A DNA stretch of 64,000 nucleotides from Halorubrum sp. CSM-61 (lineage in GTDB: Archaea > Halobacteriota > Halobacteria > Halobacteriales > Haloferacaceae), in assembly GCF_003781945.1 (NCBI RefSeq), contig NZ_RJJW01000004.1:152824-216823 (forward strand). Direction: 5' to 3'. The first letter of the stretch is position 1, and each line of letters opens with the position of its first letter. Position numbers and translations under genes: made by a program. Below the pieces are notes generated by a model, which worked only from the letters and a program-made list of their open reading frames with translations, did not search any database and was not told the DNA's origin. Positions 25,382 through 28,671 of this stretch are shown here, piece by piece.

Positions 25382-26710
25382 TTATAAGTACCCGCCCGCC
25401 GCCTCGGCCGCCGTCCGCCCGCTCTCTAAGGCGCCCTGGATCGACGACCACTCCGTGTAGTCGCCGGCGAGGACGACCGGCCCCTCGGGGTCGTCGGGCT
25501 CGGGAAGGCCCGCGTGAACCCCCGGCGGCTGGGCGAACTGCGCGAACGGGATCCGGTGGGTGTCGACGGTCTCCAACCCGTCGAAGTCGCGGCCGGGGTA
25601 CCACGCCTCGAGGGCGTCGCGGACGTCGTCGCGGAGGCCGGCGGCCGGCCGGTCCAGCGGCGTCTCGCCGAGGAACGTCGCGGCGATCAGCGCGCGGTCG
25701 TCGGGGGCGTACTCGGGCGCGACCTCCGACATCGGGACCACCGCGTTCGGCGAGTCGTCCGCGGCGTTGAGCAGGATCCGCTCGCCCGTCTCGAACGACT
25801 CGCCCGCCGGGAGCGTGTACCACCCGGTGACGTTCGGGACGCCCTCGGTCGGGATCGACTCGACGTCCGTGAGGCGGCGCGCCTCCGGCGGAGTCGCCGC
25901 GACGACGACCGCGTCGGTCTCGTGAGTCGAGCCGTCCGCGAGCTCGACGGTCGCGCCCTCGGCGTCGCCGCGGCCGATCCGGAAGGGGATCCGGCCCTGG
26001 CCTGCGGTCCGCACCGACTCCACGTCCTCGCCCGCCTCGATCGTCACCCCGGCGTCGCGGGCGCGGTCGGCGAGCGCCTCCGGGATCGCCCGCATCCCCG
26101 CCGCGGGGACGCCGATCGCGCCGCGGCTCATCGCGCGGAACGTGTACTCGAAGACGTTCTTCGAAGTCGAGAGGCTCCGGTCGAGGGTGATCCCGCCGTA
26201 AAAGGGCTCGACGAAGTTGGTCACGTAGTCGTCGGCGAACCCCCATTTATAAAGGTACTCGCGGATCGACGCGTCGGGACCGGCGAAGAAGTCGTCCTCG
26301 CCGCGCTTCGCGAGGTCGTGTCGGAGCGCGAGCGTCCGAAGCTTGTCGGAGAAGGAGATCTCGTCGTTGCGGAGCGAGGCGACCGCGGCGCGGGGGTCGC
26401 GGAACGGGTCCGAGAGAACCGAGCGCGACCCCGGCCGGCAGATCGTCGCGCCGGGCGCGAACCGCCGGACGTCGAGGGCGTCGCCGACGTCACCCTCGTT
26501 GCCCACCTCCGCCGCGACCGCCGGGTAGCTTGTGAACAGCACCTGAAACCCCCGGTCGAGGGTGAACCCGTCGACGGTCTCGGTCCGGACCCGCCCCCCG
26601 ACCTCGGGCCGTCGCTCGTACAGCGTCACGTCCGCGCTCGCCTCGGCGAGCCGAGTCGCCGCGACGAGCCCAGCGAGCCCGCCGCCGACGACGGTGGCGT
26701 CTCCGTGCAT
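25382..26710 (-). CDS. FAD-dependent NAD(P) oxidoreductase / amine-oxidase-like protein
   Basis: This 442-residue protein has an N-terminal Rossmann FAD motif, VVGGGLAGLVAATRLAEA, followed by ERRPEVGGR, which is typical of the phytoene-desaturase/protoporphyrinogen-oxidase-like family. The C-terminal motif VVLAGDYTEWSSIQGALESG is also characteristic of that family (flavin-contacting end). The substrate is unknown; a membrane-lipid or carotenoid-type substrate is possible. The ATG at 26710 is at the start of the Rossmann motif; the open frame continues upstream without support. It converges on the E1-alpha-like gene. Confidence 0.86.
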   Translation of the reverse strand: MHGDATVVGGGLAGLVAATRLAEASADVTLYERRPEVGGRVRTETVDGFTLDRGFQVLFTSYPAVAAEVGNEGDVGDALDVRRFAPGATICRPGSRSVLSDPFRDPRAAVASLRNDEISFSDKLRTLALRHDLAKRGEDDFFAGPDASIREYLYKWGFADDYVTNFVEPFYGGITLDRSLSTSKNVFEYTFRAMSRGAIGVPAAGMRAIPEALADRARDAGVTIEAGEDVESVRTAGQGRIPFRIGRGDAEGATVELADGSTHETDAVVVAATPPEARRLTDVESIPTEGVPNVTGWYTLPAGESFETGERILLNAADDSPNAVVPMSEVAPEYAPDDRALIAATFLGETPLDRPAAGLRDDVRDALEAWYPGRDFDGLETVDTHRIPFAQFAQPPGVHAGLPEPDDPEGPVVLAGDYTEWSSIQGALESGRTAAEAAGGYL

Positions 26711-26889
26711 GGGTTTCCGTTCGGTCGGGGCGCTTATAAGCGGCCACGGCTCGATCCCGCTCGCCCGGCGCCGCCGGGATATTCTCACTCTCGATATTTT
26801 GAGGATCGGGTTTGAAGCCCTCCTCCCGTCGATCCGCACGCCATGGTCCGCGCACCGCGGTGCACGCCGAGACGCTGCGGACTCGGTGT

Positions 26890-26938
26890 GCGCCACGCGA
26901 CGGGGCAGAGCGGATCCGGAGCGCGCCACGCGACGGGG
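26890..26938. repeat. Two copies of a 16-bp motif
   Basis: GCGCCACGCGACGGGG occurs at 26890-26905 and 26923-26938, 33 bases apart, immediately before the ATG of the next gene. The motif resembles the unit of the larger array near 29.4 kb. Confidence 0.6.
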
Positions 26939-26943
26939 GACGC

Positions 26944-27396
26944 ATGAGCGACCCCGACGAGCGGTGGCTCTACTACGGCGCGGCCGCGACCCCGGTCGAC
27001 CGCCCCGATCAGACGTTCGGCTACGTCGACGACGACGAACACCCCCGGTTCGGGACGTTCCCGACCGCGTTCCTGAAACGCATCGACGTGTCGGTCGACG
27101 AGGAGCGCGGCCGGATCCTGCTCTCGGAGCTGGACCGTGACCTGTACCGGCGGTTCGGGAACGGGTTCGAGCGCGTCGACGTCGGGGTGCTCGCCGCCGA
27201 CCTCATCGCGGAGACGCTGTTCACGCCCGGCGAGGCGCGGATCGTCGTGCTTTACGGCTGGTTCGACATGGACCGCGAGACGGCGGCCGAGGCGCTCGAG
27301 ACGGACCCGGACGGCGTTGCCTCGCTGGTCGAGGAGATCCGGGACCGTCGGAAGCGGGCGGACCGGACGGCGACGGTTCGGTTCACGCCGGAGTAG
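26944..27396 (+). CDS. Haloarchaeal conserved protein, DUF5802-like
   Basis: This 150-residue acidic protein has no signal peptide or membrane segment. The N terminus PDERWLYYGAAATPVDRP and the middle segment ARIVVLYGWFDMDRETAAE are the most distinctive parts. I believe it belongs to a haloarchaeal DUF5802-like family, but the name is from memory and the function is unknown. The start is placed at the ATG that follows the two 16-bp repeats. An upstream extension to 26812 is possible, but it would run through these repeats. Confidence 0.72.
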   Translation: MSDPDERWLYYGAAATPVDRPDQTFGYVDDDEHPRFGTFPTAFLKRIDVSVDEERGRILLSELDRDLYRRFGNGFERVDVGVLAADLIAETLFTPGEARIVVLYGWFDMDRETAAEALETDPDGVASLVEEIRDRRKRADRTATVRFTPE

Positions 27397-27444: not shown

Positions 27445-28671
27445 ATGGAGTCGACGGAGACGACGACGGCGTTCCGCGGGCTGGAGAGTCGCGCGTCGGG
27501 TCGCGTCCACGAGACGGCGGACCCGACGACCGTGTCGGCCGACGAGCGGGCGCGGGGGCTCGACCCCGCCTACGACTACGACGCGGTGGACCCCGAGGCG
27601 CTGCTGGACGGGCCGGAGGACGGCCCCGCCGGGACGGGCCGGGGCCACTGGCGCTTCGACGCGCTGCTCCCGTTCCCGGCCGACGCCGCGATCTCGGCCG
27701 GCGAGGGCGCCACTCCCCTCGTTCCGACGGAACGGCTCGCCGACGAGCTGGACGTCGACGCGGTGTACGTCAAAGACGAGGGCCGGAACCCGACCGGCAC
27801 CGTGCTCGACCGCGGGCTCTCGGTCGCGCTCACCGCGGTCGCGGCGCGGGCCGCGGAGGGACAGGACGTGGAGCCGCTCGCGTGCGCGAGCCCCGGAAAC
27901 GCCGGGCAGTCGATGGCGGCGTACGCGGGCCGGGCCGACCTGCGCTCGTACGCGTTCGTCCCCTCCCGGTGCGCGTTCTCGAACAAGGCGATGACCAACG
28001 TCCACGGCGGCGACATGCGCGTGGTCGGCGGGCGTTTCCCGGACGCGGTCGACGCGGTCGACGAACAGCTGGAGACGGAGTACACGGACCTCGGCGAGTT
28101 CGCGACGCCGTACCGCCACGACGGCGTGAAGACGCTCGCGTTCGAGCTGGTCGCCGACCTCGGCGACGCGCCGGACGCGGTCGTCGTACCCACGGGGTCC
28201 GGCGAGGTCGTCGCCGGGGTTTATAAGGGGTTCGCGGAGCTGGAGCGCGTCGGCGCGATCGACGCCGTCCCGAAGGTCGTCGCGGCGCAGGCGGCGGGCT
28301 GTGCGCCGATCGCGGCCGCGGTCGAGCGCGGCCTCGACGAGCCGGAGCCGTGGTCGACGCCCGACACGATCTGCGGCGAGCTGGAGATCGCCGACCCCGC
28401 TGGCGGCGCGGCCGCGGTCGAGGCGGTCCGGGAGAGCGGCGGCACCGCGGTGAGCGTCGCGGACGAGGACATCCTCGCGAGCGCGGTCGCGGTCGCGCAG
28501 AACGAGGTGATGGAGATGGGCGCCACCGGCGGGGCCGCGCCCGCCGGCGCGTGGGCGCTCGCGGAGAACGAGTTCTTCGACGGCGACGAGACGGTGGTCC
28601 TGATCAACAGCGACGCCGGGCTCAAAACGCCCGACGTGCTGCGCAGCCACCTGATGGGACAGGGGATTTAA
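27445..28671 (+). CDS. Threonine-synthase-like fold-type II PLP protein without the PLP lysine
   Basis: This 408-residue protein resembles threonine synthase (ThrC) over its length, with KDEGRNPTGT, CASPGNAGQSMAAY (phosphate loop) and VVVPTGSGEVVAGVYKG. In active ThrC the lysine of NPTGSFKDRG forms the Schiff base with PLP; here the segment is NPTGTVLDRG and residue 121 is leucine (CTC, 27805-27807). No other lysine sits at that place. The protein may bind PLP or a substrate without catalysis, or work as a paralogue with another role. A normal thrC may be elsewhere in the genome. A GCGATTAG box lies about 30 bases upstream. Confidence 0.85.
   Translation: MESTETTTAFRGLESRASGRVHETADPTTVSADERARGLDPAYDYDAVDPEALLDGPEDGPAGTGRGHWRFDALLPFPADAAISAGEGATPLVPTERLADELDVDAVYVKDEGRNPTGTVLDRGLSVALTAVAARAAEGQDVEPLACASPGNAGQSMAAYAGRADLRSYAFVPSRCAFSNKAMTNVHGGDMRVVGGRFPDAVDAVDEQLETEYTDLGEFATPYRHDGVKTLAFELVADLGDAPDAVVVPTGSGEVVAGVYKGFAELERVGAIDAVPKVVAAQAAGCAPIAAAVERGLDEPEPWSTPDTICGELEIADPAGGAAAVEAVRESGGTAVSVADEDILASAVAVAQNEVMEMGATGGAAPAGAWALAENEFFDGDETVVLINSDAGLKTPDVLRSHLMGQGI

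Follow-up and report, generated by a model that had tools for sequence, protein, structure and literature searches.

What keeps a threonine-synthase-like gene intact once the lysine that forms the Schiff base with PLP has gone? A gene in the window, by which we mean the whole 64,000-nucleotide stretch of DNA that was analysed, raises this question (Table 1). Its product belongs to the PALP family over the whole domain (PF00291, the sole Pfam match, at 7.6e-62 and 209.7 bits against a cut-off of 35), the solved structures closest to it are those of threonine synthases (2zsj at 2.5e-44), and its predicted model (pLDDT 95.9, pTM 0.94) superposes on B. subtilis threonine synthase with a Z score of 47.5 and an rmsd of 1.9 over 328 residues. 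The original prediction, that leucine takes the place of the Schiff-base lysine in a reading frame that is intact and long, stands in both respects: residue 121 aligns with Lys61 of the Thermus thermophilus (Tt) enzyme, and the frame is open throughout. The closest named relatives (95-96% identity) are Halorubrum species, and all the Halorubrum orthologues that were compared have Leu or Phe at site 121. Two Lys-bearing Halorubrum sequences (L089, L090) represent a separate paralogue, called B here, and are not orthologues of the window gene, which lies at locus A.

Table 1. Features of the lysine-less gene and of the region upstream of it
Feature	Position	Strand	Remarks
Divergent FAD oxidoreductase-like gene	25382..26929	-	Start uncertain, MHGDATVV taken as start; named by eye
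150-residue ORF between the FAD gene and the lysine-less gene	26944-27396	+	No Pfam or NCBIfam match
Lysine-less threonine-synthase-like (PALP fold) protein	27445..28671	+	408 aa, open frame
NPTGTVLDRG motif	27787..27816	+	NPTG[TS]FKDRG in Lys-bearing relatives
Leu121 codon CTC at the position of the PLP Schiff-base Lys (Tt Lys61)	27805..27807	+	
Part of second residue set: Asn185, Gly189, Arg197	27997..28035	+	Retained non-PLP residues
Degraded PLP phosphate loop, residues 250-255 (TGSGEV)	28192..28209	+	TGGGVG in Lys-bearing relatives
Part of second residue set: Pro306, Asp307, Gly311, Glu314	28360..28386	+	Each in 70/70 lysine-less rows
Retained C-terminal tail DVLRSHLMGQGI	28633..28668	+	Lost in Lys-bearing paralogue B

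When haloarchaeal relatives were compared at this residue, as had been proposed, 87 of 248 family sequences had lysine and the other 161 had one or another of 13 replacements; the set is not independent, many species being present twice (as a named and an unnamed record) and Halorubrum being over-sampled. Beyond Halorubrum the replacements are Leu, Tyr, His, Ala, Val, Thr, Arg, Phe, Asp, Glu, Asn, Gly and Gln, with Ile seen as well. The orthologues with Leu or Phe and the 161 lysine-less sequences rule out chance or sequencing error as the source of Leu121. The count excludes 12 of 260 extracted sequences: six paralogues from the source genome G000 (L002, L003, L004, L094, L096, L097), one duplicate (L095) and five fragments or split genes (L070, L077, L092, L127, L129). 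With a Lys-bearing query at 1e-60, a family member was detected in 230 of 232 Halobacteria genomes, G037 and G194 being those without. A nucleotide-level search for the motif NPTG..[not K]DRG, restricted to codons starting with C, G or T, matched in 171 of 391 Halobacteria genomes, a rough figure because it misses codons beginning with A and includes a few chance matches; the reversed control pattern gave 0 among the matches listed. Two of 30 pattern loci (L105, L120) were not family members, and neither were L161 and L162 from the same list. Outside Halobacteria, where 148 genomes of the phylum were searched, homologues are at most 40% identical. Thirteen of the loci from this search were examined, 11 from outside Halobacteria and two from the Halobacteria genomes G044 and G045, and 10 of the 11 carry the residues of canonical threonine synthase (ThrC).

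The lysine has not gone alone. The original prediction took the phosphate loop and other motifs to be retained, giving the picture of an intact active site with one odd residue, and on this point it was mistaken. The loop is GSGEV in the window protein against GGGVG in Lys-bearing relatives. Across the family GGGxG is intact in 84 of 87 sequences with Lys and in 1 of 161 without it, so that with 160 of 161 lysine-less loops broken (3 of 87 with Lys) the loop cannot be called retained. Almost every Lys-bearing row carries FKDRG, SAGNAGQ and PTGGGVG. L179, L242 and L244 keep Lys in a degraded site, and L081 has no Lys yet has the GGGxG loop. Further PLP contacts have decayed among the 113 family representatives. 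Asn152 of the GN motif (Tt Asn87), which we take to contact O3' of PLP, is found in 42/43 Lys-bearing and 42/70 lysine-less rows and is kept in the window protein, while Thr389 (Tt Thr317), presumably the partner of the PLP ring nitrogen, is found in 43/43 and 43/70 and is Ser in the window protein. Glu, an odd residue for a phosphate-binding loop, occupies position 254 in 30/70 lysine-less representatives. When pairs were corrected for phylogeny, loop loss went in the same direction in 4 of 7 and in the opposite direction in none (p 0.125, with few pairs).

Compensation within the protein is not apparent. No column of the family alignment gained Lys in the lysine-less rows, which rules out a substitute lysine elsewhere, and the 13 kinds of replacement at site 121 imply that no single residue takes over catalysis. 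Judged from sequence, PLP catalysis has very probably been lost in the window protein, which should be unable to make the usual Schiff-base link to PLP and has most likely ceased to bind the cofactor. In two sequences, L242 (genome G191) and L244 (G188), the lysine is kept (TVKDRG) and the phosphate loop is ruined (YPLDGT and YPLEGT), so decay of the PLP site can start elsewhere than at the lysine.

The proposal that the gene does not make threonine by the normal mechanism is probably correct, given the decayed PLP contacts, the lack of a new lysine column and a canonical ThrC orthologue in 232/232 genomes. The source genome encodes its own ThrC (300 bits against the TIGR00260 cut-off of 167.1), a paralogue only ~36% identical to the window protein, and an active threonine synthase is ruled out by the lost active-site residues together with this separate enzyme. 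The window protein shares with ThrC structures (PDB 6nmx, 1v7c, 2zsj, 2d1f; 30-34% identity) the whole fold, the domain order and the NPTG..DRG frame; unlike them it has no Schiff-base Lys, GSGEV in place of the GNAGN loop, Ser for Thr317 and no Asn154-Ser155 pair. Tt Asn154, Ser155 and Arg160, which we take to be the residues that hold the substrate phosphate, correspond to Glu218, Phe219 and Arg224, so only the Arg is kept. Asn154 and Ser155 are replaced even in Lys-bearing members of the family, so threonine synthesis was probably not the job of the Lys-bearing ancestor either. The best NCBIfam model for the window protein is NF006050 (PRK08197, 'threonine synthase'), at 248.9 bits and below the curated cut-off of 303; the Lys-bearing relatives L133 and L152, from which it differs by the loss of Lys and loop, exceed that cut-off with 379 and 368 bits. 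The name that annotation models give to Lys-bearing members is probably wrong, and it is unsafe for lysine-less ones. A newly gained ThrC that released the family from its duty does not explain the losses, since ThrC is present in 232/232 genomes whatever the state of the lysine. In H. volcanii, a mutant with an insertion in thrC3 (HVO_2969) grew only when Gly, Ser and Thr were supplied (PMC4300041); HVO_2969 could not be tied to either ThrC or the lysine-less family.

The lysine has been lost repeatedly. We built a tree from 116 rows, three of them outgroup, and 365 columns, leaving out the PLP motif columns and thinning rows at 84% identity within each residue state. On this tree, which is a quick one with long branches and on which transfer of a Lys-bearing gene could mimic some losses, the state of the lysine needs 8 changes, 7 of them forced by the starred branches. 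If loss is irreversible the number rises to 13, or to 9 with branches under 95 collapsed. Forcing the lysine-less rows into one clade costs 478 log-likelihood units, and a single ancient loss is rejected (p-AU 6e-49). There are close cases on either side: G189 (Thr) and G067 (Arg) lie among Lys-bearing rows, of f5 and f12 respectively, and the intact G197 sequence (L250) is nested with Ala-bearing f4 rows.

The lysine-less gene is nonetheless under constraint. Over 435 pairs of 30 Halorubrum orthologues the median dN/dS is 0.217; the value for paralogue B is 0.165 over 45 pairs. With a catalytic residue lost, a fold that is predicted to be kept and purifying selection, the window protein fits the sequence-based description of a pseudoenzyme of the PALP family. 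In G026 the gene is split, in G194 there is no match, and L070, L077, L127 and L129 are split in their records. The G333 orthologue (L282) has three in-frame stops and is likely a pseudogene of the lysine-less gene. The broken copies in G333 and G026 indicate that the gene is dispensable at least sometimes.

What the lysine-less proteins have kept is best seen beside what paralogue B has lost. At sites conserved in Lys-bearing locus A, lysine-less sequences have lost 10/24 in the PLP segments (site 121 included) against 22/159 elsewhere (Fisher p 0.0024; the boundaries of the PLP segments were chosen with the site table already in view). Paralogue B has lost 0/24 in these segments against 16/159 elsewhere, and of its 16 lost sites 11 show a conservation of at least 96% among the lysine-less rows. 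The second set of residues, found like the first by inspecting the alignment, comprises Asn185, Gly189, Val194, Arg197, Pro306, Asp307, Gly311, Glu314, Ser401, Met404 and Gly407; it stays conserved at 96% or more where the lysine is absent and has disappeared from Lys-bearing paralogue B, a loss that counts as one event because it is confined to one clade. The branch that decides between a derived and a basal position of B has 82% support. L292, from outside Halobacteria, matches the Lys-bearing family at most catalytic residues but not at the second set. Paralogue B occurs in part of Haloferacaceae and in one other genus. Both A and B were observed in 26 genomes; in 24 of these A has no Lys, and in the other 2 (G188, G191) its PLP loop is broken. 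The source genome and many others have a lysine-less A and no B, so B is not a general replacement for A.

A second role that needs no PLP is indicated by three things together: lysine-less proteins retain the second set, B has lost it, and selection is purifying. We therefore favour, with a probability of roughly 0.65, the reading that the window gene encodes a PLP-independent pseudoenzyme which keeps the second, haloarchaea-specific role of a once bifunctional protein; that the selected role was inherited from the ancestor is just as probable. According to this model, a Lys-bearing ancestor in Halobacteria, which we infer to have been bifunctional, would have combined a PLP reaction with a second role resting on other residues (Asn185, Arg197, Pro306-Asp307, Gly311, Glu314 and the C-terminal RSHLMG tail). 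The PLP role would have been lost in the lineage of the window gene and in many other haloarchaeal lineages with the second role still under selection, and paralogue B would have retained the PLP site without the second set, a course that resembles subfunctionalisation. A small acidic metabolite or a partner protein is the probable ligand of the old substrate cleft, with its conserved basic residues (Arg123, Arg175, Lys181, His187, Arg224), and the lysine-less protein would then act as a sensor or regulatory subunit. This last proposal, a sensor or regulator that binds a ligand or a partner, is a tentative one.

Among other explanations, the one that survives best, although we consider it unlikely, is that the protein is an enzyme which performs new, cofactor-free chemistry in the old cleft through Asp122, Arg123, Lys181, His187, Cys286 and Glu314. 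Such polar residues are present in 69-70/70 lysine-less rows, seemingly beyond the needs of folding, but nearly all are equally conserved in Lys-bearing locus A and hence did not arise with the loss of the lysine, and no residue has become fixed at site 121. Less likely again is that the protein serves, without catalysis of its own, as a subunit of a working PLP enzyme, canonical ThrC for instance. Dimers are common among fold type II enzymes, serine palmitoyltransferase offers a precedent in LCB1, which is without the Lys of its partner, and the presence of ThrC in 232/232 genomes means that a partner would always be at hand. However, the ThrC paralogue is distant at ~36% identity, no gene neighbourhood with thrC was seen in the loci compared, and B cannot be the general partner because the source genome is without it. 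That the protein is still a B6 enzyme, binding PLP or PMP non-covalently or through another lysine, is improbable. Lysines at 110, 181, 229 and 394 are largely conserved, and His, which serves in place of Lys in ColD, a fold type I enzyme, is among the replacements at site 121; these lysines are, however, the same as in normal threonine synthases, with none new, and the loss of the phosphate loop in all but one lysine-less sequence, the frequency of Glu254 and the variety at site 121 all speak against a retained cofactor. A decaying gene or an assembly artefact, to which the broken copies and split records might point, can be dismissed in view of 161 lysine-less sequences over many families and the low dN/dS in Halorubrum.

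The preferred reading, a pseudoenzyme with an inherited second role, has parallels in serine palmitoyltransferase LCB1 and ColD, which are likewise members of PLP families kept after loss of the lysine. These differ in belonging to fold type I, whereas here the loss has occurred many times and has left 13 replacement residues in the counted set. No lysine-less threonine synthase or fold-type-II pseudoenzyme was found described in the open papers searched, which do not cover most subscription journals. The wider proposal is that a near-universal haloarchaeal protein was bifunctional early, that its B6 chemistry was dropped at least 7 times with the haloarchaea-specific second role tightly selected, and that in some lineages a duplicate took the opposite course; we would give this even odds. 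If true, evolution would here have run the making of a pseudoenzyme several times over, as a natural experiment with replicates. As the same catalytic residue was lost repeatedly and others stayed fixed, the residues of the second role would be readable from the alignment and open to test, and since haloarchaea have genetic tools the question of that role can be put to a knock-out.

Gene neighbourhoods bear on orthology. The FAD oxidoreductase-like gene lies beside 17/40 Lys-bearing and 24/46 lysine-less representatives (those with 2300 bases upstream), and beside 0/8 of the paralogue-B rows among the 40. Because it flanks both Lys-bearing and lysine-less A genes, these can be regarded as positional orthologues where the FAD gene is present. 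Glycine-dehydrogenase-like and 6-phosphogluconate-dehydrogenase-like genes are found beside B, and a prenyl-glyceryl-phosphate-synthase-like gene beside f7 copies (all named by eye). No neighbour or fusion in the loci compared names the second role, the neighbours being named by eye from their sequences; the extra-long L145, L237 and L254 look like cases of too-early starts and were rejected as fusions. A conserved downstream row of genes, named by eye as a DtxR-like regulator and GDT1-like and LysE-like membrane proteins, was observed at eight loci (L072, L074, L079, L081, L133, L164, L216, L219). The small ORF immediately upstream of the lysine-less gene has a relative in only two named loci (L050, L073) and may be an orphan gene or an insertion.

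A final observation concerns the N-terminus, where the zinc-ribbon cysteines of the family (CxxC...CxxC) are gone in Halorubrum (27445-27570 in the window; L001, L047, L053, L059, L062). By a simple pattern, these cysteines are present in 31/33 Lys-bearing A rows, 10/10 B rows and 55/70 lysine-less rows, and from the counts by group the zinc ribbon seems to have been lost after the lysine.
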